DNA of 64,000 nt, taken from the NCBI GenBank assembly GCA_914767715.1, contig OU612071.1:14183493-14247492 (forward strand), read 5' to 3'. Positions 1-46,955 of the stretch are shown here, in pieces (the first letter of the stretch is position 1; every line of letters begins with the position of its first letter). Both the position numbers and the translations under genes were made by a program. This DNA is from Membranipora membranacea (lineage: Eukaryota > Bryozoa > Gymnolaemata > Cheilostomatida > Membraniporidae). The notes beneath the pieces are model-generated. The model was not told where the DNA came from. It worked only from the letters and a program-made list of their open reading frames with translations, and ran no database searches.

Positions 1-3000
1 ACCTTGCTCCTCATGCAGAGAAACAAAGTCTTAACAATTACATTGAAAGTGATACAATGAATGGGGACTTTGATGATGAGATGCCAGGAGTTGTTGTGGA
101 GTACACCCTGAGGATATGTAATGACAACTCCTGCGACATATGCCAGGAAGAGGGTAAGTACTCGATCTAAGTTACAATATGTCATCAACCTCGTCTGGTG
201 TCAGTAGAGGAGTTATAATTGCTCTTCTTCTTTTGAAATAACCACAGTTGGTTGATGTAACCAAAGATCATGAATACTCATTGATGTAACTGGTTTCGCA
301 CAAGAATTTTGAAGCCATAACGGAAAAATATCTGCAGTCACACAGCACTGAGATAATAAAGGCGATGGTGTACTTTTATTATTGAATATGTCAACCTGGA
401 GTTTATTTATTTGTATGTTATGGCACGATTGGCCTTATCGAACCCCCTTTTTGCGGTTGTGTATAACACTGCCTGTTCCATATTTTTTGACGGGTAAAAT
501 ATCTCGCACACTAAACAGATGATGGTGGTGGCAACGTTTTTTTATTCAGAATTGAAAACATCTGTTGGTGATACTTCATGCATGTTTTGTTATGTGCCCC
601 CCATAGAGCTGTAGCTATAAAGTAGCGTGAGAGTTGTGACCGTGGCTTTTTCAAAAACATGAATGGGTACTACTCACAAAAAAAACTCAGGCAACAATGC
701 ATTAGATTGAGCTCAATAAGGATTAGGTTTAGGAACCCTTAGATAAACTCGGATTGATTTTACTCGGACTATTATTTTCTCCTCTCAACTTCCCTTTCAT
801 AAGTAGGATATTTTTTACTGTATTTCAGGTAACAACCCACCTCAGGAACAGAATCCTGATGATGATAATTTAGATGAAAACCAAGAAAACAATCAGAGGG
901 GCAGTTTGCATTCAGGAGGTGGTAATGGAGGAAGACCTCGTAGTAATATCAGTGGTGGGCAAAATTGTTCTGGCCCACAAGATGGCGATGCATATGTGGA
1001 TAGCATGATAGAGAAATTGCAGCTCTTGCAATCAGAGACTCGTGAGTATAATTGATCCAGATGAAACAAAACATTATCAGACATGTTGGCGGGAGTAACG
1101 TAGTGGGGACTCAACACCAAAATCATCCTCGACCATATGTAAAGAGAAATAGATAGCACAATAGTAAATGCAATATTCTTTTTGGTATATACACTAGGTT
1201 TATTTGGCCATCCTATTTAACGACCCCCTTCTGTGCAAGTGGCTTGTGTGGGGTAGATACCCTGTACCCTTCCCGCTGCTGCCAGCTCTTTTTTCGAAGA
1301 GGCAGAGAGAGATCTGATGACGTCCGGCGTCAGGAAACAAACCTGGATCATCAACAAAATAACTGTACATAATAGGTGAAACCATTTTCTGTTTACAGTG
1401 CGTAGCAGGGTGATGAAGAAATTAGCACAAAGCAGCCAACTACCAGTAAAAGTCCTCCAGAAGCTCCATAATTCCCCGTACGCATCACAGTACATTGTCC
1501 CCCTCAATTCTAAAAGACTGATCAGATATGCTTTGATAATGTTCAGTACTATCGGCAGGGATGGAGCGAGTGAAGAGGCTGCGGTGCTCAGACAGGCTTT
1601 AACACATACCGGCTTTAAAGTCATCACAAAGGAATGGTCACTTACAACTGAGCTACTCGACAGCATCAAACACTTGCTGAAGGATCTATTGAGTTACTGT
1701 TCAATCCTATTCATCAGTATCATGTCGCATGGCAGTCATGGTGTATTGAAGGGAACAGGTGGATCTCAAATTTCAGTCAACCATGTTCTGGAAGTGGCAG
1801 CTGACATATTGCCTAACCATCTTCCTATGGTAAGCTTCTGGAAGCTGCTGATTCTTGCATTCTGCATTCAGGTGTTCTTAACCTGGCTTTACCCTTTGAA
1901 AATCAGAAAGAAAGCAGTCAATATATAACCAAAACTAACCAATCTAATCTAAGCGTTGTCATTTTAGATATTTCTGATCCAAGCTTGTCAGCAGGCATCG
2001 AAGAATCCTTCTACAGAAATCACTCCAGTTGTGTTGAGAAGGCCAAACACTGTCTTACTTATGGCAGCTCTACCAGATGGCGTAGCTGTAAGGGGGGCAT
2101 ACACTGGTGCTTTTTCTGATGTGCTCCAGAATTGTGGCAGAGCAGCAGACATCTGTAGGATCCACACCATGGCAGTTAGCAGGATGAAGCGTTTTGACCC
2201 TGTTGAGCAAGTTCCGATTCTGTTCACCACGCTGAACAAACAGCTTTTGTTGACAAACAGAGAGCCAATGAAGATAATTCCCCTGAAGCCTTTCACTGTT
2301 ACTCTAACTGGAACTGGCAATGCACATGTCAAAAAGCAAGAAGGGAGCGCTAAAATATATGAACACTCTATGACCGGTAAGGAAGTTTTAGCAGGTTTAA
2401 TCTTCACGGTCGATGAATTGAGCTTAGACGCTGATTATTATTAGTATGGGCAAATTATCTGCCATGATTTCCTTTGATTGTTTATATTCTTGCAGCAAAC
2501 AATACATTGTTCTCATCCATGCACCTTTCTAAAAATCAATTTGGTGCACATTCATGAATGTATGTATGTTTGTATATGACATTCACTTTATCTGCAGGTA
2601 ATGATCAAAAGTCATCAGGTGCGCCCTCTGAGTCTACTGGCCCTCTTAAAGAAACAAGAGAGTTGTCTGGGCAGCTCAGCACTCTGAGAAAAGGTATCTC
2701 AATCAGCCAAGCAACCATATGCCCTTTTATTTCAAATGCAGCATTAACCCTTTTGATAATCGGGTATTGTACAAGCCTTCTGTAGTTGGTGCAAGTCCAG
2801 TGGTAGAGTGCCCCAGTGGTAAAAGCCTTTGACCACTGGGACACTCTACCGCTGGACTTGCACCAACAACAGAAGGCCTGTGGGGTGTTGCATTGTTGAC
2901 TGAATGTTAACATGCACTCAACCATGTTAGAAACCAGTTGGTCAATTCCAGTATATAGCATAGTGTTGTTGACAATGACAAGCTCAGAGCATGGTTTCTA

Positions 3001-5319
3001 GGTATCTAGGGCACATTTATTACCTAAATCAAAAATCCAAGGATTCCTATTTTAGCATAAAGCCTTGTTTGCAGGTTTTCTGCCCCGTTTCATATCAACC
3101 CTTACAATACAAATATACCAACCAAAAAAGCTTTTACTCTTTTTTAGATGATGAAGATGATCAAATTGTCACAGTTGATCACGACCTGCAAACATCAGAT
3201 AGTATCCACTCCACTCCTGCAATAGAGTCGTTTGCCTGCAACTCCAAGACTGTGGAGAACGAGTATCAGAGAAAGATTGATGCAGATGAGAAAGGTATGG
3301 GACCTTTCCACAAGAATTTTGTGGCTAGTTATCTAGAGGAGTATTTACAGAGAAGGAGACTAATGATATTTGTGAAAGTATGCTTAGAGTTGGTTGATTA
3401 GATTATGTTAAGTGCGGACATCAAGTGATTGATATTGTTTTAATCGACTTATAATGGTAGTCTGTTTGAACTAATTTAAGCAATGGTTAGTAACTTTGTC
3501 ATTTTATTTAGATCGGATAGATGCCATTGTTGAGCTGAGGCTGATGCTGAGAGCTTATAGTTGCTCACGCTCTGCTGACTTCCTGGAGTTGAACAAACTT
3601 ACCCGTCTCCTGACAATGTTAGAAAGTGAACGGTTGCAGCTTCTGAAATGGTCAAGCAACATGCAAACCCGCCCACTGCTCAATGTCGCCGCTTGCCAAG
3701 ACCACACAGAAGTTATCAAAACCATCTTAAAGCCACTGACTGAGCACGAAAAAACCAAATTGCTAACCATGAGCAGGTGGACACCCTTGCATGCTGCAGC
3801 AGTCAGAGGTTGCAGTCAGTCAATAAAAACAATTCTTCTCCTCTGCTCGCCTGAGTTGAGAACTAAGCTTTTGTCGAAAGAGGATAAACGCGGCAAAACA
3901 GCTCTACAAAGAGCAGTTGAAAGAGGACGGGAGGCTTCTCAAAGTGCACTATTGAGCTTTGAAATCGCAAAGGATAGAACAGGGCAGAGAAGAACAAGTG
4001 AGTTGAGATTATTAATAAATCGTCTCCTTTTGATAAAGCTTGATCTTGTGTTGTTCCTAAGCCGATTGCAATTTAGAGGCTCATTGAAGATGATGGTCAT
4101 CACAACTGAATTATTCACATTTCGCAATTTTTGCATTTCACAATTCGAATTCGAGGCAATGTTCTGTTTTTTGTTAGTGTTTCCTGACACAGCCCAACAA
4201 AGAACACAGGAGGAGACAAAACCTGACAGCATACTGGTCCCACGGCAAAGGATCTCACTGACTAGCCGTCAAAGCCCTCCGGTAACGGTTTGTGTATTCA
4301 TTTTCATCTTATCTACCTTGTTTTAAATTGAGCACTCTGACATCATAATGCAGAGAATCGGAGTTACCTTCCCTTATGGGAAGCATCATAAGTAACTGCC
4401 GGACTATAACTAGTGATGGCAAATTGTCAGATATTGGCGAGACGGGACGAGACAGCAACAATATTGGAGAAGAGACCGAGACATATATCGATGCCGACAA
4501 AATTGAAAACCGCCACTTTATTGGCATCGGCAACGGTTTTTTTGATTTTTTGTTATAAAAAGCCAAAATCCGTGGCAAAAATTGTGTCAAAAATAGTGTC
4601 TATGATGAACAAGTCTCGACATTTGTCAAGAGTGTCTGTCTCGACGAGACAGTGTCTCGAGGGGGCAAGTCTCACGAGCCCAAGACCGTGACTTTCTTTG
4701 CCATCACTAACTATAACATGCAAATTGATCCTTGGGTAAATAGTAGTCTTTAAGTTATTTACTGCTGTTTTATGATTATTGGTAGTTTGTTATGACTGGG
4801 ATGAACAAATTTGGCTGCAGCTCCAGATTTATAAGAAAAAAAACCTGGGCGAGATGGTTCATGGTGCGCAGTGGCCAGAAGTGGTGGGATAATACCACAA
4901 GGACCTGGTAAGAGTGTTTATATTACTAATATCAAACATCTTGACTAATGTACTCTTTACTGATTTTTGATATAACTCTGTAAAGTGAATCTTTTAAAAA
5001 CCAACCATCATTTGGATGGCGAGATGGCGCAATCGGTTAGCGCGCTCGCTATTCACTGCCAGGCGATTAGTGCTGCAAGAGTTGTGGGTTCGAATCCCAT
5101 TGCGGGAGCTTTCAAGGTTGATTGTTCCAGCCCCCAGCCCCCCAAACAACTATGAAGGTCCCAACTAGGACAATCTTAGGAAGCAACAATTATAGTTTTA
5201 GGATGTTTTCAAATTTATTTTCTTGTCGGAATATTAAACAATTGAAAATTTTTGAATTTTACAATGTCTATGTTGTGCCATTTAGGGTTGATGATACATG
5301 GACCCTATGGCTCTGCTGA
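1..5319 (+). CDS. Caspase-like protease with C-terminal ankyrin repeats (5' end missing)
   Basis: Cysteine protease of the caspase (C14) family, expected to cut after aspartate in cell-death or immune signalling. Exons with matching phases: 1..153, 829..1041, 1399..1829, 1968..2376, 2598..2693, 3148..3294, 3512..3997, 4178..4281, 4786..4907, 5286..5319. The p20-like part (exon 1399..1829) carries the catalytic-His motif ISIMSHGSHG. The next exon opens with IFLIQACQQ, holding the catalytic Cys (family consensus QACRG, so the Arg-Gly is replaced), and continues into a p10-like part with VAVRG, matching the S1-pocket Arg region, and FTTLNKQLLL. Exon 3512..3997 encodes ankyrin-like repeats (TPLHAAAVRG, KTALQRAVERG). 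Exons 829..1041, 2598..2693 and 3148..3294 are acidic or low-complexity linkers. Prodomains, if any, lie upstream of the window. The last two exons are the least certain; an alternative acceptor at 4822 would give an earlier stop. The caspase call is strong, the gene end tentative. Confidence 0.82.
1195..1372. repeat. Interspersed repeat R1 in caspase intron
   Basis: Contains GGCTTGTGTGGGGTAGATAC and a CGAAGAGGCAGAG block. A related copy is at about 26670..26795, and part of the motif recurs in the SINE at 54145..54488. It is probably a SINE fragment. It lies in the intron between exons 829..1041 and 1399..1829. Edges are approximate. Confidence 0.5.
2771..2881. repeat. Long inverted repeat (50-nt arms, 11-nt loop)
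   Basis: The arms 2771..2820 and 2832..2881 are reverse complements at 46 of 50 positions, separated by an 11-nt loop. The repeat sits in the intron 2694..3147 of the caspase gene. Transcribed, it would fold into one long hairpin of microRNA-precursor size. The arm contains TGGTAGAGTG, which resembles a tRNA A box, so a fold-back SINE fragment is the alternative. The structure is seen directly; a function is not shown. Confidence 0.75.
4411..4709. mobile_element. hAT-type MITE with 8-bp target duplication
   Basis: A 299-bp non-coding element with terminal inverted repeats TAGTGATGGCAAA / TTTGCCATCACTA. It is flanked on both sides by the same 8 bp, ACTATAAC (4403..4410 and 4710..4717), the target-site length of hAT transposons. 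The interior is related throughout to the inverted copy at 25611..25886. It lies in the intron 4282..4785 of the caspase gene and carries no transposase. Confidence 0.9.
5015..5150 (+). mobile_element. tRNA-derived SINE
   Basis: The head has a pol III A box (TGGCGCAATCGGTTAGCGCG) and a perfect B box GGTTCGAATCC at 5087..5097. It does not close into a tRNA cloverleaf with a paired acceptor stem, so it is read as a SINE and not a tRNA gene. A tail motif TTGATTGTTCCAGCCCC recurs near 56930. It lies in the last intron of the caspase gene. Confidence 0.7.
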
Positions 5320-6780: not shown

Positions 6781-7209
6781 GCTTGTCAAGAGGGGCTACG
6801 GGTGTGGCAGCTTGAAGTTGGATTTCTCAAAGAGTAATATTAAGGCATCACACAGATATAATCCATTTCAAAATATTATAACAAGCAATTTCGAAGTACT
6901 AGATCCAACATGTATATTAAATAATTATAAATATTGAAATACATAAAAATAAAACAGAACTACAACAACACCAACAACGCAATACATTTCCTCAATAACA
7001 TTAAACATTTAGAAAATGTTAGCGTAATAAGGTGCAAAATATAACGAAGTTTGAGAGAACAAGGTCACCATTAACAGATTTAAAAATGGATGTTCATGAT
7101 GATGCTGTGGAGCATTTTCCAAAGATTTCATCGCAGACATACTTGTTCCGAATCACTTGTAAAAACTATCAATCACAGAGTATATAAGATCCATTACAAA
7201 AGTTCTACA

Positions 7210-10200
7210 TTACTGCAATCTGTGAGTTTTAGTTATGTGTTTGCGTAAGTTACTTGACACAGAAAACTTCTCATCGCACAGAGTACATGCATAATGCTTC
7301 TCACCAGTATGAGTTCTCATGTGTCTCTGTAGATCCGAAGCACTTGCAAACTTAGCCTCACACATCTCAAATGTATACTTGTACTTCTCACTGTGATACT
7401 TGCTGTGTTTAGTGAGCTCTTTCTGATAGACACATCTGAAGTCACACATATCACGTTTGATCAGACAAGGTGGATCAGCTGGCTCTAATGGCTGAAGCTT
7501 GTTATCCTCTGAACATGTGGAATGAGAAAAAAGACAATGGCTTATCTTTATTGCCACGCTGCACGATGTGTGTTAGGAAATGACGTTTTCCTCTCGTCAG
7601 TGCACAGGAAGCTCTTTTGAGGAAAATGTGGGGTCTGTTACAGAGTTGATATCAGTGTGAAAATAAGATATTGTCTCTCCAACAATTACACCGCTCTATG
7701 TTTATTGATAGGGACCACGGTGTCTATCTGCATCCATGGTATAGAGCAGCTTCCATCATGATTACATTTTCTCATCATTGGTACTGTCCAAGATAGTTGC
7801 GTTTGGTGGTGAAGTGATACAAGGTTAATTATGTAAGCACACGGCTCCGAGCTCTTATTGCAGGTACAGGGTATTTTGAACGGATGATGTGACAGACTTA
7901 TAATTATAAGCTGCCTTCGTTATGAATTAATTGAAAAACAAAACTTACCAGCCAGCCATAACCAGACACTTGGTCCTGTTTTATATCTGGTTGTTTGGCT
8001 CCCTCATACGGACCAAATCTAGTAAACCGGGCAATCTTGATATCAGTCCAAACTCCCTTCCCAGCATCCTTTGTCTTAGATTTAGACAGCGAGGGACCTG
8101 TAGGGAGGCTTTTACGCGATCTGTCTTCTGCACCCAATGTGACCTTAAAAATTATATAGAACAATAATTATTTATAACAGACCTTAGATGCTGTAATCAA
8201 CCCAGTAGTATACCAACTCTAGCAAATAGTTTCAATGAGTTATTTGAACGTTCGCAATCAGTTAACCATAAGAAAGCCTCCAACCTCCCAAAAAATAGTC
8301 TCACAACACGGCGATTAGCTATGCGTTCCCAAACTGCAAATTTCATGATCAACAGGCAAACATTTATTTGGCGGAAGACAAACCAGATTGTGTATGGTTG
8401 TGGCAATGTTGTGATTATATCCATATCTGAGTATCACCCATGGGTAAGAGAGGATAAATGAGACAATTATCTACAAACTCCAGCTGAAACTCCTCACAAT
8501 CTACAACAGTTAGGATTGGTATTATATTTGACTCAAACTAGCTGGATTCACATAATTAAAGGCCATTGCAGGTCTCAAGCAACGATTTCTGGCGTTTTTT
8601 CAATAACTGGAATTACTGTCATTAAAGTCATGGGACAAATTTAACTTTAAACATGAGTGAAACATTATTGACTGACCCCAGGGGGTAGTTTCAATTAGGG
8701 TGAGACTAAATGTTGGGGAGGGGTACAGGATTCAGCTACTCAGAGAAACATGGTAAACCATACCATTTATGTAATTGCTCTACTGGATGAAGCCCGACGA
8801 CCAAAATATATTCCAGATCAAGACTTACATATAAATGAGTCGTCAGTCTCGACATCATATTCTTTATAACTCTGAACGGAGGCAGCACATTTTCTACGAG
8901 GTAACATCTTCTTATGGTCAAACAGCATTTTTATATTATTATGTGCAAATCTGACCAGTGATCGTTTGGGTTTAGCTTCCTTCACAGCTGACAACAATTT
9001 ATAAGACATCAACAAGTATAGTATATCTATAGTAATAATTGCATGGACTAAAATAATAAAACAATCTTCTTCCATGGAAAACATTCCTATCAAACTTCCT
9101 TATTTGTGCAGATCAGAAATAGATCAATGGCTTCATCTATATCAGCGTGTGAACACAGTTGAACAAGAACATCGTCTTCCAATTGGAGTTATCTTCTTAA
9201 TGTCAAGGAAAAGACAATCATTTCTCTCAAACAAATTAAGATTTGATGTCATGTTCTTACCATTACATATGTGTGGAAATGTTTGCAAATGTTCACAATA
9301 TCTGAAGCTATTTCTTGTCAGCATTTTTTTCGTCATTTAATGTAAAGAAACATGAGTTCTAGACAAAAGTGTCAATGTTTATCTTTACAACACAACGGCA
9401 TCCAACAAAATTTGACCTGTTGAGGAATCAGATGGTGCTAGCCCAACTTATAAGACAGTACCTACACAATCTTATCGTCTTACCTTTTCTAGATTTAGCA
9501 GGTTTGGCTTCTTCCTCTGAAAGATTCTCTTTGTCCGAATCTTTCTCATCTGAGGACCACTCAAAGTCTTTAAGATTGTAATCATCACCAGCTGAAGTGC
9601 CGTCAAACTGCACTTTATTGGCGAACTCCTCAAAACTATCATTGAATCCTGTCCCTTTCTGCTAAAAAAAATGCGATGAAGTTTTAAATTCCATGAAGAA
9701 GGTGCTCGCAAATTGATTTGTCCTGTCCATGAGACCATCCCCATCATAAAGGGCTGAAGAATTAAGTCAACACTCAGTGATTCATCTGGTTTACAAAAAA
9801 GGAAGTGTGGTCTTTTTTGGAGCATTACACTTAACTGATACACTACAGATGAATTTATACAGATGTTAAGACCAATCCCGGATGGTATGGATTTTACTGT
9901 CCTCTTTGAACCTAATCTTTGTAGCAACACGCAACAAAAGGAACCTACTCTGTCTTTTCGATACATAGAGTAGTTTGGTTTTTTGGCGGGCATCAGGTAT
10001 GGGGTGAGGTATGAGTACTAAAGCTTAAAGTACCTGTACCAAAGAGAGGATAACTCTCTCTGCTTCAGAGATAATGTTACATTGCCAGTGAGTGAGTGTC
10101 GTGTATTCTTTGTGCCAGTACCAAGGTAACTTTCCAGTTGATTTACGGTGACACTCACCTTACTAGCACTGACTGATTGCTGAGCGATCTGTTTCTCAAG

Positions 10201-11423
10201 CTGAAGCTTGACTGGTGGAGGCTGGAACCTCTGGACTTGTTTTCTTTCTACAAATAGTTGAAGGTTACGTCTTATATGTATTAGACTGCAGATCAGCTAA
10301 TAATGGGCCTGTTCAAATTTTCGTATTCATACCAGTCAAAACCTGTGTAATGACGATGATGAGTGAGCTCTTGCAGTTTATCTAAAATTTGAAAGTCAAA
10401 CATAGTTTTATTTAATTGTAAGATGAATATAAGATATCAGACACAAGCATTTCATTATTGTAAATTAAGACTCACTAACAATATATTTCCAATTCATGCC
10501 CCTCCCCCACCTGTGAATCAGAGACTGTGTCAGGAGGGTCAGTAAAGCCTCACAGGTACCTCTGGCTGGTCTCTTCTTTGGAGTGACTTTTAGCGTGTCA
10601 TCGTTCGTCGGCTGTTTCTTAGTTTTCACCAGTTTTATTGTCCTCTTACATCCTGCTGTTACGGTTTGTGACTGATCATTACCAGGTTTAGCAGATCGGC
10701 TGGAGCTATTCTTGAAGGATGGCTCTGTTACAGGTAACCCTGAAAATCAACTCAAAAGCTTTAATTAGATCTATGCAGGAATAACCATTAGGATATCAGC
10801 TCTTAATTTCTGTCAGAATTAATTACATTAGTATTGAGCATGAATGGCACGATGGTAATCTTATCATCTAAGCTTATTTTCCAATTCTTATGGGACCAGC
10901 ACCCATGATGACAAGGCTCAAACCACAGTTTTATCCCAGGATTGTTAGGTTTTATTTGTTATTAGTGGCGTTTGAAATAAAACAATGGGAAGAATACAAG
11001 ACTGGAAAAGCTGTCATAGGAGCCGTTGTGGAGGAATCACAAGCTGTATCAATGTCTTCTACTAGGTTTCTTGTTTCAGTTGAAGTAATTTTCTGAATAT
11101 TTCAGCTAAGGGTAAGTGGGTCGTCAACTTCACAAATGTTGTCAATGTGTTGCCTTTCATTTTAATCAACAGCCAAGCCATTTGCCAACTTTGTTCCCTC
11201 ACCATGATGAATAACATTCTATTTCAAACAAATAACCATAAGACCGGAAAGTTCAAGAAGGCCACTTCTCCGGATGTAGACAATCCAGTCCACACAACAC
11301 AGCTTAATCGTACATGGTCTTACCTATAGACTTCATGAATTCATGGTTTCTGATGAGATTCTCGCTTCTGGTTCTCTCACAGCTGCTCATACATTTCAGC
11401 TGATCTGATGTGAAGTGGAGACT
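7210..11423 (-). pseudogene. PRDM9-like pseudogene (copy A)
   Basis: Decayed copy of the neighbouring PRDM9-like gene. Recognisable exons: 11324..11423 (KRAB-like, start codon lost), 10560..10739, 10159..10247, 9484..9661, 8829..8987, 8427..8500, 7949..8143, 7210..7508. Lesions seen by comparison with copy B are as follows. The start region is deleted and fused to upstream flank. In exon 8427..8500 the zinc-knuckle CEEC is CEEF and the donor GT is AT. Two codons are deleted in 7949..8143. The exons with the SET core (NCAR, WYGD) and the isolated zinc finger are absent, so the remaining exon phases no longer join. The finger array has only three fingers, and the first two each lack a cysteine (C to R, C to F). 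A truncated transcript cannot be excluded, but no full PRDM9 function is possible. Confidence 0.85.
10020..10075 (+). mobile_element. SINE fragment
   Basis: Matches the 3' part of the minus-strand SINE at 54145..54488 (shared GAGAGGATAACTCTCTC block next to CCTGTACC). It lies in an intron of the pseudogene copy A, with no counterpart seen in copy B. Confidence 0.6.
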
Positions 11424-13614: not shown

Positions 13615-16600
13615 CTACATCACTACAGTCTGTGAGTTTTGGTCATGAGTTTTTATGTGTCTTTTAAGATGCTGAACCTGTGTAAACCTAGCATCACATT
13701 GAGTACATGCATAAGGTTTCTCACCAGTATGAGTTCTCATGTGGTACTGTAGAGGTTGAGCTGTTGTAAACTTAGCATCACACTGAGTACATGTATAAGG
13801 CTTCTCACCAGTATGAGTTCTCATGTGTGTCTGTAGATTATTAGACTTTGTAAACCTAGCATCACACTGAGTACATGCATATGGCTTCTCACCAGTATGA
13901 GTTCTCATGTGAGTCTGAAGATGGCCGGCTTGTGCAAAACTAGCATCACACTGAGTACATGCATAAGGCTTCTCACCTGTATGAGTTCTCATGTGGTACT
14001 GTAGAGGTTGAGCTAGTGCAAACCTAGCATCACACTGAGTACATGTATAAGGCTTCTCACCAGTATGAGTTCTCATGTGTGTCTGTAGATTATTAGACTT
14101 TGTAAACCTAGCATCACACATAGTACATGCATATGGCTTCTCACCAGTGTGAGTTCTCATGTGTGCCTGTAGAGGGCCAGCTTGTGCAAACCTAGCATCA
14201 CACTGATTGCATGCATAAGGTTTCTCACCAGTATGAGTTCTCATGTGGTACTGTAGAGATTGAGCTAGTGTAAACCTAGCATCACACTGAGTACATGCAT
14301 AAGGCTTCTCACCAGTATGAGTTCTAATGTGTCTCTGTAGATCCGAAGCACTTGCAAACCTAGCCTCACACATCTCACATGTATACTTGTACTTCTCATT
14401 GTGATACTTGCTGTGTTTAGTGAGCTCTTTCTGATAGACACATCTGAAGTCACATTTATCACATTTGATAAGACGAGGTTGATCAGCTGGCTGTACTGGA
14501 TGAAGGTCTTTATCCTCTGAACATTTGAAAAGATAAATATACAATGGTTGTTTTGATTGACATGTTGTGCAATATGTGGTTAAAAAAGCACATGGTCTCT
14601 TTTGAGGAAAATATGGGGTTTGCCAGATAAGATTTCAAAGTGAGTACAAGACTATTTCAATCAAAGGGACTACAGTTTCGAACTTCATTAATGGTAAAGA
14701 GCAGCTGTGGTAGATTTTCAATCACAGCTGAAAATTGAAACTAAAATTTCATAAATTCATGTATTATTAGTTGTCTTCCCATGTCATCACTTTAGTAACT
14801 TTTCTAATTTTATTTCTTATGTGGTGGATTTTCTACCACAGCTGAACATTCAAAAATAAATTCATGAATCATGAGTTGTCTTCCCCTTTCATCATGTTTA
14901 TAACTTTTCTAATTTTAATAATAATATGCTTTTAATAACTGGATTTAATTATTACAATCCATCTAAAATATTTCATCAGCCAGTATTATAATAATGCATT
15001 TAATAACTGATTTCAACTCTTACACACCCATCTAGAATGTTCCCTGTTTCCTGCTGTTGCATCAGCCAGTATCATATTACATTATGCTTTTATATAACTG
15101 AACATCAGAAGAGTCTAGTCAGTTAGTATCCAGTAGCTGAAGTAACAAGACCTTAATATTTTAACTAGTCTACAGATCACCAATAAAGTGCCTTACAACT
15201 TAACCAACTGAAGTAAGTTTCTTGAGTTCTGCCTGCTGGCAGACCTCCCTGCGTTGACATAATGTTGCCTTGTTTGTACTCTGTTGTTAGACTGTAGCCT
15301 CCCTTGGGTAGTAGGTAGAGGCCAAGTGAAAACCCCCATTGACCTGATTGCCAGTCCAGTTCCAGTTCCCGTTCAGTTCAATCCAGTCCAGTTCCAGTCC
15401 AGCCCAGTCAAGTTTTCTCGCAAAGATAGTTGTAAACCCAGAGCCATTCCCTTCCCCCATGTGGTTATTTATTTTATCTATACCCCTTCCCTCCCATTGA
15501 TTATATTGTCCAACCCTCTTCCCCTGGCCCGTTTGCTTCCTTTTGTCTCGCCCGATGAATAAGTAGTAATAAAAGTTTGTCCATATTCCTTCCCTCCCCA
15601 ATTTATTTTGCCTGATAAATATGTTAATAGTTTGTCCATATCCCTTCCCTCCCAAATTAATCTTGCCAGATAAATAAGCCTACTATCTTTGTCCACATAT
15701 CCCCCCCCCCCCCCAAAGCCAGGTCAATTATATTCCCAGCCCAGATAGAGTCGTCGTACTCGTTACCCCCCCTCAGTTAGAGCTGTCGTACTCGGTATAT
15801 TCCAGGCAGATAGAGTCGGCGTACTCGTTTTAGAGAGTCAGCGTACTCAGTATAAATAGGCAATGGGCGTGGTTGCAGTGGCGGGTATCGCCGCCTTAGG
15901 GTAACCCCCTCAAAATCCTCTACACTTACAAGCTGTCTATGGAATTTTCCATGGAAAATTTCAAAATTTAGTATCACATGACCAGTTAGTATTTTGCAGC
16001 TGAGGTAACAACACCTAATATTGTAAACTAGTATACACTATACAGATAACCAATAAAGTGCCTTACTGAACTCAACCCACTGAAGTAAGTTCGTGAGTTC
16101 TGCCTGCTGACCAGACCTCCCTGCCTTGACATAATGTTGCTTTGTTTGTACTCTGTTGTTAGACTGTAGCCTCACTTGGGGAGTAGGTAGGGGCTAAGTG
16201 AAAATCCCCACTGTACCACTGCAACCATTGACCTGATTCCCAGTCCAGTTCCTCCCAGCTATCTTGCAAAGATAGTTGTAACTCAGAGCCATTCCCTCCC
16301 TCCCTCCCCCTATTTGATTATTTATTTTATCTATACCCCTTCCCTTCCATTTGTCTCGCCGGACAAAGATTCCCAGTCCAGTTATTCTCCCAGCTATCTT
16401 GCAAATAATATAGTTGTAACTAAGAGCCATTCCCTTCCACCCCATTTTTTAATTTATCTATACTATACTATCTTCCCTTCCATTTGTCTCACCGGACAAA
16501 TAAGGTAATATTCGTCCAAATCCCTTCCCCCCAATTTGTCTTGCAAGATAAAGAGGGTTACTACTTTGTCTATATCCCTCCCCTCCTCTGCCATTTGTCT

Positions 16601-19600
16601 TGCCAGATAAATAAGGCTACCATCTTTGAACTCGTTACCTTCCCCCTCAGATAGAGTCGGCGTACTTTGGTATATTTACAGGCAGATAGTCGGCGTACTC
16701 GATACATTTCCACTTGGACCCCTCCTGTTTATCATGTTTATTAACGATCTGATGGAGCTCAAAAATTGTTATCTATATGCTGATGACTGCCTACTAGTCA
16801 CCAGTGGGGAAAACCCAGACATTTCCACAAAACTTATGGAAAAAAGCATTCATCAAGCATCCAGTTGGTACAGTGAAAATTGCCTTGTTCTAAACAGCGG
16901 TAAAACGGATGTCATGACCATTTCTAATAAACGTAACATCACACCTCCGGAACTAAAATTTAACAATCTCGTTTTCAAACAATCTGACAAAATTAAGTAC
17001 TTAGGTGTGATTCTTGATAACAATTGAATTTTAAATCTCATACCAGTAAAATTAAACAAAAACTTTATCCAATAGTCACCAACTTTCAACGTAATAGAAA
17101 ATTCCTGACACCTAAATTAGCTAAGCTTTGGTACATTGGACTTATACGTTCTAATCTGGAATACAGCTCTCCTGTTTTATTTACGACTATGTCAAAAAAG
17201 AAATTTCAAAAATTGAGAATAGATGTTTGAAAATTATAGACTATAACAGTTCTAAAGATAATACTCGAAAGACCTACAACATCCCTGTGTTAACGTTGCG
17301 TTTCGAATATTTGTATCTGCTGACGTTTTATAAAATTGTTAATAGTTTAGTCCCAATAATTGATACCAATCTGCTCCCCGAGAAATTAACTAGAGAAACT
17401 CGGCTTGCTAAAAGTTCTGGGTTTAGACTATCCAAGGAAAATTTTAGATTTGCTTTAGCTAATTTCGGTGCTCAGAAGTTTAACGAATTACCCAATCATG
17501 TTAAGCTGAGTCAATCCCTTGCTACATTCGAAAATGCCACTCGGAGCCACGTCCTCAAACTTCTCAATTAATGAGTCAGTTCTTATCATTTCATTTTAGC
17601 CTGCTGCTACATTGTTCTAACTTTTCTTTTCCTAGCTATTGTGTATTAACTTGTGTAATGTTTGAGATCTCTGAGATCTAAAGAGATTTGAGATCTAAAG
17701 AGAATTACATTTGAGATCTAAAGAGAAGTTCAGTTCATTCAAATCTTTACTTTTCAACCATATATTATCGACTTGACCAACATCATTGATGATATTATTT
17801 CCCTTCTGTTTCTCTTTTTTTGTTTTCAAAAAAATTGTTTTCTGGCACTGAGTGCAAAACATTTCGAATGAGATGACTTTGGATGCCATTAAAAAGTATA
17901 TATATATATATGTTTTACTGCTAATTAATGCCTGCGTGTACTTTGTAATTTTACCTGTCATTGTTCTTGATTTTTAGTTACATGTCTTTTTAATTCTACA
18001 CCATATTTTTATCAATTTTTCTGTTTTCTTGGTACAAGTCCTAAGGACTTATTCTTCTCCAGAATAAACATGGAATATATATATAGAGTCGGTGTACTCG
18101 TTTTAGAGAGTCGGCGTACTCAGCATAAATAGGCAATGTGCGTGGTTGCAGTGGCGGGTATCGCCGCCTTAGGGAAACCCCCTCAAACTCCTCTACACAG
18201 CTTCCATCATAAGGTGAGCGATGGTATCAACAGGGTTATCCAATGAGTGAAGAATCTGGTATTTCAAAATTAGACGATTATGATTCATGCTAGTAAAAGA
18301 GATGTTCCTATTAATTAATTTGATTTTGGTTATATTTTCTTCCGCTCACCTGGTTTCTCATTGTGCCATCTCATATGTCTCTTTATAGTCCACTTATTAA
18401 CAAACTTTGCTTTACAGATATCACAGTCATAGAACACAGTGCCCTCCGGTACCATTGACTCTTTAGGTTTGGCTGTTGAGAGAAAAAGAAGTAAGTATGG
18501 GCTTTGTTGCCTATACTGCAAATATTGTAGATGTTGTAACGCAAATGGCTTAGTTTGACAGAGTAGCAACCTAAATCATGACACTCAAACTTGATCACTA
18601 ACTAAGTTTACTACCCGTAGAATATTGGTTGAAAATTTAGTCATTACCATAAGCTACCATAAGCACAAGTTTAGTAAGATCACAGATCAATTACACACAA
18701 ACCTGGTATAATAGAAGCAGAAAAATTGTCTTTGCTTATACCGAGATCAGCAGCATAATCATCTCCATACCAAACCAATAACTCATGTCCTGCAAAAAGA
18801 AATATATAAAAAAAGATAGACTCCTCTCATGAATATAATGGGTATACAAGAGAGCACTCTTTAAACAAGCGTTGTAGACGAAGAACTAAAAAAAGGGAAT
18901 GAAATTCGAAAATAATAGTTGGTCAGTACACAACTTCAGTTGGAACAAAGAGTAAAAGGAATCAACTCTAACCTCTAACTCCTTGGTTGGAATAAAAAAA
19001 AGATTTGCGGGCTAACCCAATCTAATGTTAAGCGTACACCTTCAATTTGGCACAACATCAATATTGAACGTCACCAAACTTTCATATCCTTGAGAAGCAC
19101 ATTTATAGCGAGAACAAAATCCCAATCTTAACAACTTATTACAGTATCTAATGCTGCACCACATCTGTATTATGCGGGATCAGATTTTCGGCTCTATCAA
19201 GTACCTGTAAATCTATGAGGAGCATTTTAATACTTAGCACATAAGTATCTGACCTCATGTTCAAAAATTATGCAGAAATGTGTTCAACCAACCTTTCCCA
19301 ATTTCTCTCAGAGCTTTATAGTAGATCTGTCCTCGGTACTGAAACGCTTCACAGTTTTGTTCTTGTTTAGTTCTGGCACAGTTTACATAACGTAACCAGT
19401 TAGACTGTTTCTCGTCTTGACCATCGATGTAGAATGGGTCAGTCTTATCTGTCACCTTAAAACATCAATAGGAAAATTTAAAAAGGTAATCTAGTATGTT
19501 GTGAGCCTTCAACATGAATAGGAACATCACCTAGCATCAATTTTATTTTAAATCTAGCCAGGATTGTCATCATCATGTCAGAATTACAATTTTTCGTCAT

Positions 19601-22600
19601 CAGTACCGTCCAAGGTAGTTACATTTGAAATGATTAACATGCTTAATTATGCAAGCACAAGACTCCAAGGTAAATGCAGCTATAGTGTAATTTTAACTGA
19701 TGCTGGGGTGGCATTAGTGAATTAGTTAATGAGCAGAACTTACCAGCCAGCCGTAACCAGACACTTGGTCCTGTTTTATATCTTTGACAGGTTGTTTGAC
19801 TCCATCATACGGACCGAATCTGGTAAACTGAGGAATCTTTACATCAGTCCAAACTCCTTTTCCCGCATCCTTGATCTTTGATTTAGACAGTGAGAGACCT
19901 GTGGGGAGGGTTTTACCGGCTCTGTCTTCTACACCCAATGTGACCTTTAAAAAATATAAAGAAAAAGAATTTATAAAGGACCTTAGATACTGCAATCAAT
20001 TCAGTTGTATAACAACTCTTGTGAGAGGAATTTCACTCAATATAGTCAAAGTAATGAAATGATTCAAACTTCCTAAGATGTGCTAACACATCATTGATAA
20101 TTAAACATCTCCAACACGGCAAAAATCACTCCTGACACGCAAAATGGTCAAGTGGCGAAAGACAAAACTGATTGTGTATGGTGAAATACCTGATCAATTT
20201 ATCCATACCTGAGTATCAGTCATTGGTTTGAGAGGATGAAGAAGGCAATTATCTACAAACTCCAGCTGACACTCCTCACAATCTATAATAGTATGAATCT
20301 GAATTATAATTGACTTAAACTAGTCCAAACTTCGGACGTTATGCCAATATCTGTCTAAAACTGGCAAAAACCAACCACTTGAGTTAGATGACAAATTTTA
20401 ATCTTAAACGAGAGTGAAACATGATTGATTGAGGCCAAGGAGTGGTTTCAATGAAAATGAGACGAAATTGTTTTCAGCACAAACTTATGCCAATTGAAAC
20501 CGAGGCAGGATATGGGATCTAGTAATCCAGAGAATCAAAATGAACCATGCCAGGTGTGATTATAATTTCTCTACTAGGCGATTCCCGACAATTCTACATA
20601 GGATATAACTTTTAAGGACAATTTCCGTATTCCAGATCAATACTCACATATAAATGAATCATCAGTCTCGACATCGTCTTCTTTATAACTCTGAACAGAA
20701 GCAGCACATTTCCTACGAGGTAACATCTTCTTATGGTCAAACAGCATCTTTATATTATTATGTGCAAATCTGACTGGAGAACGTTTGGATCTAGCTTTCT
20801 TCACACCTGATAAAAATATAAGACAGCAACAGCTATAATTTTCCATCAACTGCAACAATGGAAATAACTATGATATAAGAAACTAAATAAATAAGTTAGC
20901 AAATTTTGCAACTTATTTATTTGTGCAGACCAGAAATAGATCATTAAACACAATTGAACAATGTAGAATGTTCGTTTTTGTCTCAACAGGGAGTTTGACA
21001 TATTTTAGTGGAGTTATCTTCTTAATCTCAGGGAGAAGACAACTATTTCTAATATTTCTATTATTTTTAAGTTTCTGCTATAATACTAAATGTCTGGAAA
21101 TATTGTTTGTAGTGGTTGAAGCATCTAGACATATTATGTGTTAACATAACCGGGTCATTCTACATGAAGTGATGGAAAGTAAAGAAGAAAGTGGGTATTT
21201 GTAATAATAATAAGGAGTATTAATGTTTTTTAATCCACCACGACAGCATCCCGCAAATTTGTCCAGCTGAGATTTTTAAGTTGTTAGTCTAACCTAAAAG
21301 AAGGTAACTACACAAACTTGCCGTCTTACCTTTTCTTGACTTTGCAGGTTTAACCTCTTCCTCAGAGAAATTATCTTTGTCCGACTCTTTCTCATCTGAG
21401 GACCACTCAAAGTCTTTAGGGTCGTAATCATCATCAGCTAAGGTGCCGTCAAACTGTACTCTATTAGCAAACTCCTCAAAACTATCATTGAACCCTGTCG
21501 ATTTTTGCTGCAAACAGTGTAAAAGAGCATTCATAGTCCATTAAAGTTTGAGCCCCAGCCTCTTTCACTCAATCCCTCAGCCCCCCCCCCCCAAATTTAA
21601 GCTGGGACACAGTGGATGTGGGGGATTTTTTCGGAATACTAGATCCAAAAGACTAATTACTGATGTTTCAGGTTCGATTTTCATAGACAGTTATCAGACA
21701 GAAATTGTTTTCTGTAGATGGATTTGACCGCTATTTTCTTCATTATAATAATATGTTGTTTGTGATTAAGTGTCATTCATCATATGTGCAAGGAGAATTC
21801 TATTCTTCCTGATCTGTGTCACCAATAAACAATGAGAAATCTGAGATGATTTACAAAGGCGCTCACCTTAATAGTGCTGACTGGTTGCTGAGCGATCTGT
21901 TTCTCAATCTGAAGTTTGACTGGTGGAGGCTGGAACCTCTGGACTTGTTTTCTTTCTACAAATAGTTGAAGGTAGAGTCTTTTATATATTACAGCAAATT
22001 GCTTATAATGGGCTTGTCCCAATTTTCTTATATATACTAGTCAAATCTCTCTATGTAATGACAATGGATTAGTGAACACTGGCAGTTTATCTAACATTTA
22101 GAAGTCGAAGATGAGTTCTTTTATTGTAACAATAAACATAAGATATCAGACACAAGCATTCATTACGGTAAGCCAAAGCTGCCAGACGATGGACAAGTTG
22201 AAAAAAATGAAAATATCTTTAATTCATGCCATCGCTGTCCATCTGTGATTCAGAAACTGTGTCAGAAAGGTTAGTAAAACCTCATAGGTACCTCTGGCTG
22301 GTCTTTTCTTTGGAGTACTTTTTCGTGTCTCATCGTTCGTTGGCTTTTTCTTATTTTTCACCAGTTTTATTGTCCTCTTACCACCAGCCGCAGCTGTTTG
22401 TGACTGATCATTACCAGGTTGAGGTTTAGCAGATTGGCTTGAGCGATTTTTGAATGATGGCTCTGTCACTGGTAACCCTGTAAAACAGAACATTGCAAGA
22501 ATCAAATAATAAGCTCTTAGTTTTCTTTCAGAATAAATTTGATTACAATTGAGCACAAATTGCACAACGGTAAGTATAAATTACGAATGCTATCTATCTT

Positions 22601-22947
22601 TCAACTTGAATGGTATCATTGCCCAACAACAGGGTAATTGCTACGCTAAATCACCTCTGTTACCACCCTAACAATAGCCTGGGATTCAGGCCAACTATGG
22701 GGCCTTGTATGTATGATGCACATTAGTTGTGTTGGATACTGTGTTATCTTCTTGTGTATCACTAATGTGCATTTCTGATAAGACCTGTCACCACAAATTT
22801 ATTATTATACATTGCCTTACCTATTGACTTCATAAATTCATGATTTCTGATGAGATTCTCGTTTCTAGTTCTCTCATAGCTGCTCATACACTTCAGCTGA
22901 TCTGATGTGAAGTGGAGACTCAAATCTACATCCATATCCGCAGCCAT
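13615..22947 (-). CDS. PRDM9: PRDM9-like histone H3 methyltransferase with KRAB-like, PR/SET and C2H2 zinc-finger array
   Basis: In vertebrates PRDM9 trimethylates H3K4/K36 in meiotic nuclei and places recombination hotspots. Eleven exons: 22821..22947, 22292..22477, 21867..21955, 21330..21507, 20648..20806, 20209..20282, 19744..19944, 19293..19455, 18703..18789, 18350..18472, 13615..14516. All have GT-AG borders and matching phases, giving 762 residues. Order: KRAB-like (about 6-50, LSLHFTSDQLKCMSSYERTR); acidic region with DFEWSSDE; SSXRD-like basic segment (about 195-245) leading into DDSFIYCEEC; zinc knuckle C248, C251, C259, H262; PR/SET (about 247-425) with GKGVW, NWLRYVNCAR, ELLVWYGDDY. 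Tyrosines Y317, Y384 and Y400 align with human Y276, Y341 and Y357. Then one isolated C2H2 finger (YDCDICKAKF) and ten fingers in the last exon. The ATG at 22947 lies just before the KRAB-like segment; an upstream 5'UTR exon is possible (AG at its 5' side). I infer orthology from domain order and intron-separated modules. Confidence 0.92.
13640..14465 (-). repeat. C2H2 zinc-finger minisatellite of the PRDM9-like gene
   Basis: Ten fingers, the last nine at an 84-bp period joined by HTGEKPY-type linkers. The first two are divergent (CDKCDFRC, CEMCEARF); the other eight are nearly identical except at helix positions -1, 2, 3 and 6. Helix cores in protein order are SASDLQR, LAQSLQY, QAGPLQA, KSNNLQT, LAQPLQY, QAGHLQT, KSNNLQT, TAQPLQY, QVQHLKR. 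The order LAQ / QAG / KSNN is repeated, so a three-finger (252-bp) block was duplicated. Confidence 0.9.
14705..15110. repeat. Tandem repeats in intron 10
   Basis: Two units of about 112 bp (from 14708 and 14820, sharing CACAGCTGAA, AGTTGTCTTCCC, AACTTTTCTAATTTTA). These are followed by three shorter units with TAATAACTG and CATCAGCCAGTAT blocks. Non-coding. Confidence 0.6.
15115..16700. repeat. LTR-like repeat complex with TATA and AATAAA motifs
   Basis: A segment of about 350 bp occurs twice as direct copies (about 15115..15480 and 15985..16330), sharing CAATAAAGTGCCTTAC, GAGTTCTGCCTGCTG and TTGTTAGACTGTAGCCTC. Between and after them are short pyrimidine-rich units (TCCATATCCCTTCCCTCCC, TTGCCAGATAAATAAG). 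A TATAAATAGGCAATG box lies at 15850, about 200 bp before the second AATAAA, an arrangement like U3-R of an LTR. The TATA-proximal block recurs at 18120..18197 beyond the LINE. No gag or pol gene is seen. The LTR nature is inference. Confidence 0.55.
16700..18084 (+). mobile_element. 5'-truncated non-LTR retrotransposon (CR1/Jockey-like)
   Basis: Reverse transcriptase remnant in three pieces separated by a stop or frameshift (to 17027, 17030..17230, 17230..17571). It includes GPLLFIMFINDL and the catalytic YADD motif (LYADDCLLV), then KYLGVILD and C-terminal RT/thumb sequence. The element is truncated before the RT fingers and ends near an AT repeat at 18075. Both sides carry the same host repeat (GTCGGCGTACTCG), so it inserted into the LTR-like repeat. 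Confidence 0.8.
18085..18200. repeat. Right part of the LTR-like repeat interrupted by the LINE
   Basis: GAGTCGGCGTACTCAGCAT, AAATAGGCAATG and CCGCCTTAGGGAAACCCCCT match 15820..15925 closely. Here the TATA box is altered (CATAAATAGG). Confidence 0.65.
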
Positions 22948-43093: not shown

Positions 43094-46000
43094 TTATGAT
43101 TTAATTGATGAACTTGAAATATCATCGCTGAGATGAGAACTTGTGTCAATGAAAAGAGCAGAGAGGTTGACAGTTTGATCATTGAGGCAGTCAAAGTCAA
43201 TGGCTGCAGAAAAAAAAACCAGGTCCAAATTTCATCTAGAAATTTATGCGCAAATTTTCTAGGTTGTCTGAAATTTCCAAAAGCTCTAGGCTAGTAGGTA
43301 TGCATTGCATGGCAAAAACAAGATTTAAAAAATTCAAAGCTTATGGTTGGTTAGCTGCATAACAAATAATTTGTACTGCTTTATGTTTCAGTGTTTTGGC
43401 GGGCAGCTAAACTTCTCTAGTGATCTTATTTACTTACGTTCGCAGGCATAAGCAAGTTTTCTTCTACATGTCCAGTCATTGTAATGGTACTGAGGAGCGA
43501 CACCCATGTCAACACACTGATGTCTACTTGAGCCAGTGTCACTCGGCTCGCCGGGGCCCAACAGATCACCGTTGAAAGCGGTATTATCCAAGTTGAAGAA
43601 ATTTTGTGATCCGGGATTATCTTGTTGACCGCTTACCCAGTTATAGTCGTTACAGAAACAAACCGTTATCAAAACAACACATCAGAACTTCAAACAAATT
43701 GAAGGCATTCAGTCAACAAGTATTAGATTATCTATTTCATGTCTTAGACATAATCATTTCCATTTTTTCTGTGTATTTAGCCTAGCCATTTTTGTCTCTC
43801 ATTTTTCTTCATTTATTTTTGCTCGCTCTGGCATGACATTCGGAAGAACATTGTTTTAATGATGAACATTGTTTGTCAATAATATTAAAATAAAATATCA
43901 ACACAAAAATTGGCATGTCATGAAATGCCTTTCTCTTTGAGTCATCTACATGAAAAATCTATCAAATCAGCCTAAAATGTCTCTGAAGATTGTCACTTTC
44001 TAAGTAGCTAACTACAGAAAGTAGTGCTGGTTAAACATTCATAAAAATAAGTTAATAATAAAATGAAAACAAATTGAAAAAAAAAAGAAATTAAAAAAGG
44101 AGTTAAAATCAAATAATGTAATAAAAAATGAATATTTGAGTTCCGCCCGCCTTTTTTTGAACTGATGATATTGTATGATAGTGAACATACTGTGCTCGAC
44201 CAGGAGAATGAACGTCCGTAATATGACCTGGAAAGCACAAACTTTGTCAAAGTTCAGGAAAACAGGCAGCAGTTTGAAGTTAAAATTACACCATATATTC
44301 TTATTAAGCCTCAATTCTGATTGCATATTTTCATGTCGAATTTAGAAGTCACAAACTATACTGAACAGAGGCTCAAACACAATGTAAACAGATTGAGCAA
44401 TAAAGTCGGGATAAGTCCCCGCCAGAAGGCTCTAGGGGATCAAACACATGGTGACCAGGAGGCCAGGTGCAGTATCCCATTTAGTTTTCAATAAACCAGT
44501 TTCAGCTCCCATAAAATAAATTTAATTGGCAAGTTTTACTGTTGCTTCCTAATCAGTAGATTGGATACCATTAATGTGTGAATTTCAGTGATGCTGGTTA
44601 GTAAGTAATGTACCTTGAGGTTGAGAGAGGTTAAGTTCAGGCACTTTTTAATTCATGACCGTAGTTAAGAAATAATAGTGGGGGAGGCAAAAGTCTGATG
44701 CAAGTCTGAAGCTACTGAAGTTACTGTAAGCTCTTCCCAAGCAGTTTAAGTCATATAATTAGCGAATGGAAATCCCAAATGAGTTGATTCTGACATGGAA
44801 TACTCAATTATAGCATTGATAGGCCACTCTATAGAGCATTCTAGGGCATTGATAGGCCACTCTATAGAGCATTCTAGGGGAGGCAGAGCGTCCCTGCCTC
44901 CCTTAGAGCTACAGGCTGGTAATTAATTGTTGTCTTCTGATCTTTTTCCACAAATTTGTTGACGTTAAAGTCGATGAACAGTTTTCAAAGACTTCATTGA
45001 TTCCTTACCACAATTATCAACTATGGCTTTGATTATGTAATTATGTGTTAAAGTTCCAGACAGAGTGTTAATTGGAAATTGAAGTCTTACCATTCTCTTG
45101 CCGAACCAGTCCCAACGTTTCAGCTTGCTGAGCATTTTTCACAACCACGAGTTGGGTGTTACCACTTAAAGCAGCACATTCATTCTTAGCCTTATTCCAT
45201 CTTTCCTTTGTTGTGAAGAATTGATAGCAGGTATTGTCCAGTATGCCATCCCTTTTCCAGTCACCTGGGCAGGGCGTTGGGAGGTTCAATGGTCCTGTTG
45301 GAGAGAAAAAACCAAATTATAAGAATTGCGCGAAAACTGTCAAGCCAATGTGTTTGCTCTCATTGCCCGGTGGGTCAGATCAAGGAGTTAGAGACTCCTT
45401 GGTCAGATGGTACTGTTCCTCAAAGTACCTTTATATATCATAGAAAGTGTTAATTAATTCAGTTTCACATTCATTATTATCCCAATAGGTGTTCTCTGTG
45501 ACCTGGCATTGGTTCTTTTTCCTACCCAACAGCAAATCAGAGCCAATCATTTGTGGATAGTAGTGTCATGATATCAATGCTTGCGAGCCCACGCTCTAAA
45601 GTGAGTAAACTATTTCTATTAATTTAAACCAATGGTAAGCTGCATTGCAAAGTCTCCTGAGATAATTTAGATTTTACACTTTCCAAAACGGTGAGGGGTT
45701 TGCTTAATGTTACCTAGCACTTAACTTTGACAAACTTTGGTGGGAGTCTGTATTATGAAACAGGAAGAGTATATACAAGTTAGACTTAAATTTAGCTATT
45801 TAAACCGTGTTACAAATAAGGAACCTTGCTTTTAGGGTTGGATAAGATACCACACTGACCACATGATATGCTATATATATAAATACTGTATATCTCTGAT
45901 CGATAGAGAGTGAATTAATTCACTTAGTAGACAGAGTACCATCACAAGGAATCTGGAGCAACCACCCTTAGCCAATTTCATTAATCAGAGGAAGGAACAT

Positions 46001-46630
46001 GTTAGGTACTCTTATTAAATTGACTCTAGCGATCAGGGATACACATGTTAATAATGTAGTTTGGATGTCAATGTGGATAAGGGCTGTAGTTTAGAAAAAA
46101 TGTTAGGGGAGGTAAAATCCGAGGCAAATCCGAAGCATCACCAGGAGGGGTGCTGTAAGCTCCTCCTCAATCAATTTAAGGCATGTAATTAGCAAACTGG
46201 AAGCCCAGAGGCGCTAATTCTGACATGGATCACTCAATTATGATGTTTTTAGGCCACTGTATTTAACTTTCTAGGACTTATGCTTCCCCTCCATGATTTC
46301 CTGAACTACGGCCAATTCAGACCCGTAGTTCCAGGGGAGGCAGGGAGGCAGGGCCTGTGGATTCTCGATGTCATTGTGGATACTTACTCTCACATATATA
46401 CTCCAGAGGGTTGGAGCACAACCAATCATTGAGCCGATACGCGATACCTGAATCTACTTGATCCACAGTTCCCATGTCAACGCATTGCCTAGGGCCCTGA
46501 AAAATATTGTTTGGCTCTCCAGGCCACCAGAGGTCAGGCGTACTGACGTCAGAGCCATCAGTCCACTTGAAAGTTGATGAACCTGTAGCTATCTGCTTCC
46601 CCCCTACCCAATAGTATTGTTGGTATAAAC
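43094..46630 (-). CDS. C-type lectin-domain protein (5' part not found)
   Basis: Predicted carbohydrate-binding extracellular protein with two CTLDs. Exons: 46388..46630, 45091..45294, 43438..43647, 43094..43203; phases are consistent (all internal joins phase 1). Exon 46388..46630 is the second half of CTLD1: YYWVGGKQIATG, WWPGEPNN (EPN, the mannose-type Ca-binding motif), QCVDMG and LNDWLCSNPLEYICE. Exon 45091..45294 is the first half of CTLD2: PCPGDWKRDG, TCYQFF, KAKNECAAL. Exon 43438..43647 is its second half: YNWVSG, GPGEPSD (EPS, not EPN), NDWTCRRKLAYACE. The last exon adds a Ser/Asp-rich tail and a stop. The acceptor of 43438..43647 lacks AG (CG in its place). The first half of CTLD1 was not located. 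MITEs occupy two introns or flanks. Confidence 0.75.
44660..44920 (+). mobile_element. MITE family 2 copy
   Basis: CCGTAGTTAAGAAATAAT...CCCTTAGAGCTACAGG, with the usual AATTAGCGAATGGAAATCCC and GAGTTGATTCTGACATGG interior. A 31-bp segment (GCATTGATAGGCCACTC...) is duplicated in tandem inside it. It lies in an intron of the lectin gene. Confidence 0.7.
45897..46070. repeat. Dispersed repeat, copy 1
   Basis: Shares GATCGATAGAGAGTGAATT, ACATGTTAGGTACT and the GGTCAG/GATCAG end with 61477..61640. It lies in the lectin intron next to a MITE-2 copy; the second copy also lies next to a MITE-2 end (61360). Confidence 0.6.
46079..46370 (+). mobile_element. MITE family 2 copy plus extra end
   Basis: GGGCTGTAGTTTAGAAAAAA to TGAACTACGGCC, followed directly by another reversed end (GACCCGTAGTTCCAGGGG). 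Its right edge abuts the donor side of lectin exon 46388..46630. Confidence 0.65.
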
Positions 46631-46955
46631 CTTAAATAGAGAAAAATCAAAATCATTATTAGATATGTTTGTTGGTGAGGTTTAATGATTATTTGTTAGC
46701 CACTACATTGTGGTAATCATAATAGACAAAAAGAATACACTTTAAATCCTGTTATGTGTTTTAGCAGGCTAATTAGTGTCATCGATATAGGCACGGCATA
46801 TATAAAAATTATGAAATACTTGATTGATGTGATATCATGGATGAATGAGGAAATAGAACCATTAAATATTTTTTGTGCATAACATAACACATCAATAGAG
46901 AACATGAATATTAAATACTCAAAAGTTGTATTCCATTGAACCATCACGCCATTAC

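Follow-up and report, generated by a model that had tools for sequence, protein, structure and literature searches.

A 64,000-base stretch of DNA (hereafter, the window; it contains 0 N, and all coordinates below are window positions) carries on its minus strand, at 13615-22947, a gene that we identify with high confidence as PRDM9-type. Judged from its sequence, it probably encodes a PRDM9-like protein able to mark recombination sites. The reading that we favor, with moderate confidence and by analogy with mammals, is that the gene is intact, belongs to the PRDM9/PRDM11 branch, has the PRDM9 architecture and works as PRDM9 does in recombination.

Eleven coding exons encode a 762-residue product and end at a TAG stop. 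Exon 1 (22821-22947) holds the start codon and the KRAB-like segment (amino acids 1-43); the KRAB-like alignment ends in exon 2 (22292-22477), which continues into a basic linker, followed by further linker in exon 3 (21867-21955) and an acidic linker in exon 4 (21330-21507). Exon 5 (20648-20806) precedes the zinc knuckle and occupies the place where an SSXRD segment would be expected, and exon 6 (20209-20282) encodes the knuckle itself, C-x2-C-x7-C-x2-H. The PR/SET domain is spread over exons 7 (19744-19944), 8 (19293-19455) and 9 (18703-18789). Exon 10 (18350-18472) encodes an isolated C2H2 finger (amino acids 438-458), which precedes a tandem C2H2 array lying entirely in the single last exon, exon 11 (13615-14516), where an odd finger (amino acids 479-506) is followed by nine 28-residue fingers (amino acids 507-758), each encoded by 84 bp, and the stop. 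The ends of all 11 exons carry the start, stop, AG acceptor or GT donor required of them, and the phases agree, an agreement internal to the PRDM9-like gene. An AG sits 2 bases upstream of the exon 1 ATG, which suggests that a non-coding 5′ exon precedes exon 1.

Independent support for the gene model comes from a decayed tandem copy of the gene (described below): across exons 1-7, the two show no stop in 322 aligned codons and a ratio of nonsynonymous to synonymous divergence (Ka/Ks) of 0.18, on which a chance exon chain is rejected. The original prediction of eleven exons at these coordinates, 762 residues and agreeing phases is confirmed by the exon-boundary check. Its claim of the vertebrate PRDM9 domain order stands for the KRAB-like segment, knuckle, PR/SET domain, isolated finger and array, but not for SSXRD.

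The PR/SET domain is closest to that of PRDM9. Against Pfam, the PRDM2_PR model scores 133.2 bits (cut-off 27), and the C2H2 fingers are well over their cut-offs. A PDB sequence search returned 15 sequences at E up to 0.001, the top three of which are PRDM9 chains (155.8, 149.8 and 149.8 bits), followed by PRDM11 (110.4) and PRDM14 (74.9); PRDM4, PRDM5, PRDM10, PRDM16 and MECOM score 36-63 bits, versus 150-156 for PRDM9. Over the knuckle-SET region, 79 of 167 aligned residues are identical to 4c1q and 76 of 167 to 4ijd (45-47%), which we take to be mouse and human PRDM9, respectively. Human residue numbers follow from an assumed chain offset of 194, which places a tyrosine, cysteine or histidine at all seven expected sites. 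With this numbering, human PRDM9 Y276, Y341 and Y357 align with Tyr317 (exon 7), Tyr384 (exon 8) and Tyr400 (exon 9), so that all three catalytic tyrosines are kept, as had been predicted, and the four C2CH ligands of the knuckle ahead of the SET domain are likewise all present. The domain therefore looks competent, in keeping with the earlier suggestion that the methyltransferase could be active. PRDM11 (PDB 3ray) has F at the place of PRDM9 Y341.

To place the gene among PRDM families, a tree was built from eight PR/SET cores, namely the window gene plus seven drawn from the 15 PDB matches; the second sequences of PRDM9, PRDM2 and PRDM1 were omitted, and PRDM1 and PRDM2 are represented by partial rows. 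The window gene groups with PRDM9 and PRDM11 (support 89/91, under the starred level). PRDM14, PRDM12 and PRDM1 as nearest kin were rejected by the approximately unbiased test (p-AU 0.019, 0.00108 and 0.00605, respectively). The gene may be an ancestor-type member of the PRDM9/PRDM11 branch, having parted about when PRDM9 and PRDM11 split or earlier, as would be expected of a gene from an invertebrate.

At the N-terminus, the first 60 residues score 96 when aligned with human PRDM9, whereas 2000 shuffled versions have a mean of 19.3 and a maximum of 43, none of them attaining 96; here and for SSXRD, the human letters used as the alignment reference are presumed to be correct. The alignment spans the exon 1/2 junction and so supports that splice. 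Between gene and copy, exon 1 has 5 synonymous versus 2 non-synonymous differences in 33 codons. No KRAB is among the matches listed for the whole protein against Pfam (25 of 27 families), and the PDB sequence search gave no match to the KRAB-like part at E up to 10. The KRAB-like segment claimed originally is upheld by the shuffles, though without a Pfam KRAB or PDB match, and we regard it as real, if too diverged for Pfam to detect.

The finger array has the repeat structure and the pattern of variation expected of PRDM9. Its nine regular fingers (13630-14385, minus strand, coordinates derived from amino acids 507-758) form an 84-bp minisatellite with a 252-bp super-repeat: Tandem Repeats Finder reports a period of 84 (7.9 copies, 84% matches) and one of 252 (2.8 copies, 92%). 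The longer period marks a unit of three fingers that was itself duplicated, and fingers four and seven of the nine are 98% identical in DNA. Of the 24 columns, diversity is highest in the four that contact DNA (-1, 2, 3 and 6), and it is matched by no other of the 10626 four-column sets, whichever of six choices of fingers is analyzed. The share of diversity at contact sites, by Baker's formula, is 0.398 for the nine regular fingers and 0.545 for the inner seven, with a range of 0.316-0.545 over the six choices; these values are for this one gene of its host. Table 1 of Baker 2017 gives 0.331-1.000 for complete orthologues, one of which has no value, and 0.158-0.331 for SET-only orthologues (PMC5519329). 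The contact share of the window gene leans to the complete class only with the edge fingers excluded.

A role in recombination is what we infer from these parts. In mammals, PRDM9 determines where chromosomes recombine: it binds DNA through its fingers, methylates nearby histones through its SET domain and is linked to the break machinery through its KRAB domain. By this scheme, the finger array of the window gene would recognize a particular motif in DNA, the SET domain would methylate H3K4 and H3K36 beside the bound motif, and the KRAB-like end would bring in the machinery that makes meiotic breaks; biased loss of the target motifs could then drive finger turnover.

Several results weigh against this reading. 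Other tandem C2H2 arrays likewise vary at contact sites, and the contact share over all ten adjacent fingers, the published rule, is 0.316, inside the SET-only range. No Pfam KRAB match was found for the 60-residue fragment, which hit only DUF7785 (E 0.023, under its cut-off). The SSXRD-like segment of the original prediction is not recovered: the pre-knuckle stretch scores 18, a value reached by 1825 of 2000 shuffles, and has no Pfam match at E up to 10. Adding the knuckle raises the score to 80 (0 of 2000 shuffles), because of the knuckle. Exon 5, where SSXRD would lie, is nonetheless constrained, with 10 synonymous versus 5 non-synonymous differences between gene and copy. The SET-domain tree, proposed earlier as a check, yields no grouping with another PRDM family, but a partnership with PRDM2 is not rejected (p-AU 0.107). 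Trees joining the gene with PRDM9 alone or with PRDM11 alone equal the best tree in likelihood (lnL difference 0.00), and five PRDM families with solved structures (PRDM4, PRDM5, PRDM10, PRDM16 and MECOM) stand outside the tree.

The most serious alternative is that the gene encodes a methyltransferase and DNA-binding regulator of the PRDM9 family whose function lies in transcription or in development of the germ line and not in placing recombination. A transcriptional or developmental role has been raised as possible for partial PRDM9 orthologues (PMC6116924), and the ten-finger contact share falls in the SET-only range. The gene nevertheless keeps its KRAB-like segment, its contact columns lead in all six finger choices, and its three tyrosines are intact, unlike those of the fish PRDM9-beta genes described by Baker 2017, all of which are substituted at the catalytic tyrosines (PMC5519329). 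We regard a purely regulatory role as possible but the less probable account, and continue to favor a role in recombination.

Further evidence on the history of the gene comes from its tandem copy, on the same strand at 6888-11423, where exons 2-7, parts of exons 1 and 11 and the 3′ flank can be recognized. Its blocks (6888-7572, 7761-9663, 10136-10858 and 11311-11423) match the gene's 3′ flank, part of its last exon, exons 4-7 with their introns, exons 2 and 3 together with the intron that separates them, and a portion of exon 1. These ordered matches to seven non-finger exons rule out mere cross-hits between fingers at 7-11 kb. Nothing in the copy matches the opening 27 bases of exon 1, which include the start codon, or exons 8-10, home of two of the three tyrosines and of the isolated finger. 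In its exon 6, one knuckle cysteine, the histidine and the donor GT are lost; two finger cysteines are altered, and the remaining array consists of the odd finger plus two more.

Over the 322 codons of exons 1-7, gene and copy differ with Ks 0.389 and Ka 0.070 (the Ka/Ks of 0.18 given above), from which we infer that selection held both copies through most of their separate history and that decay is recent. The last exon differs: it has 3 synonymous differences in 44.7 sites, whereas exons 1-7 have 61 in 199.5 (Fisher p 0.0006; test chosen post hoc), and over its 81 aligned codons non-synonymous change outpaces synonymous change (Ka/Ks 1.46). This contrast suggests that the two copies exchanged sequence around the fingers at a later time. 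A more far-reaching account, which we consider doubtful, places the gene in an animal of very early branching, perhaps a sponge, where PRDM9 would direct recombination to fast-changing motifs of its own and its finger exon would have gone on exchanging sequence with a tandem copy that was long constrained and then left without its catalytic exons.

The decay of this neighbor would also fit a gene that is itself recently dead, or one whose exons are mis-joined. So would a reverse-transcriptase remnant inside the 3.8-kb last intron (intron 10; 16611-17568, plus strand, with a Pfam match at 16611-17024 only), which lies outside the gene product and may be of the long interspersed nuclear element (LINE) type. 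In all 11 exons the frame is open and unbroken and the splice sites are whole; given this, and the low Ka/Ks of exons 1-7, we consider a dead or mis-joined gene quite improbable. Short stretches similar to the remnant seem, by eye, to flank it at about 15800-15930 and 18090-18200. Least probable is a gene from another PRDM family whose finger array came to resemble that of PRDM9 by convergence, for which the unrejected PRDM2 partnership in a tree of only eight rows leaves some room but against which the knuckle, the KRAB-like segment, the isolated finger and the top search scores all favor PRDM9.

The CpG observed/expected ratio is 0.47 for the whole window and 0.32 in the coding sequence; the low CpG, with a TpG/CpA ratio of 1.24, points to a heavily methylated germ line. 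At 45-47% identity to mammalian PRDM9, and with its position in the tree, the gene seems unlikely to come from a vertebrate; a sponge would be compatible, and the CpG depletion would suit one. Elsewhere in the window, at 1380-4323 (plus strand), two open reading frames (ORFs) with caspase-domain matches just over cut-off are followed by an ankyrin-repeat ORF, and together they are perhaps one gene. A C-type lectin domain ORF lies at 46374-46631 (minus strand), with a second, under cut-off, at 43433-43681. Two near-identical 69-residue ORFs, at 48319-48525 and 50780-50986 (plus strand), constitute a repeat about 2.5 kb apart, and 53480-53916 is an AGGTA pentanucleotide satellite of about 87 copies. 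The single Rfam match to a tRNA in the window scores 29.1 bits, where the cut-off is 29, and ARAGORN finds no tRNA there.

PRDM9 genes with concerted finger evolution have been described from Nematostella, Lottia and Capitella, with positive selection at positions -1, 3 and 6 in Nematostella (Oliver 2009, PMC2779102), KRAB-bearing homologues or KRAB-related sequences from sea urchin (PMC8835667), and a PRDM9 of 710 residues with ten fingers from the clam Mulinia (PMC10451705). PRDM9 has been termed ancestral to all animals (PMC11703093), and full-length homologues are attributed to cnidarians and sponges, implying presence in the animal ancestor (PMC13186367, citing Oliver 2009 and Ponting 2011); the word 'sponge' does not occur in Oliver 2009 (PMC2779102), one of the two sources cited. 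A PRDM9 architecture at the base of animals is thus already in print and is not new here, and the window gene is a fresh example of a family already reported across animals, not a new discovery. Whether the function of PRDM9 was kept is stated to be unknown (PMC13186367), and works of 2018, 2025 and 2026 regard the gene as ancient, while what it does outside vertebrates, or outside mammals, is described there as unknown or unexamined (PMC6116924, PMC13186367, PMC11703093). Our search of the PRDM-related literature, with subscription papers mostly outside its coverage, found no study that tests an invertebrate PRDM9 for a role in recombination. Viral and genome contigs were also scanned for relatives, and none was confirmed by tblastn. 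The gene has all its catalytic residues, carries a KRAB-like segment and shows a reshaped array, which makes it a good candidate for asking what PRDM9 does outside vertebrates.

Among known systems, the gene resembles the invertebrate PRDM9 of Nematostella, Lottia and Capitella in being a PRDM9-type gene probably outside vertebrates, a likeness drawn by description, not sequence. If it comes from a sponge, it is of one class with the full-length homologues attributed to cnidarians and sponges. PRDM11 (PDB 3ray) is the next-best PR/SET match and belongs to the same clade, but differs in its F at the place of Y341 and scores 45 bits under the best PRDM9 chain. Compared with vertebrate PRDM9, the window gene differs in its knuckle-SET identity of 45-47%, its KRAB-like segment under Pfam detection, its unrecognizable SSXRD and its adjoining decayed copy. 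It shares with vertebrate PRDM9 (Meisetz) the order of KRAB-like segment, knuckle, PR/SET domain, isolated finger and array, as well as the catalytic tyrosines, a single last exon with repeats of 84 bp, and diversity at the contact sites.
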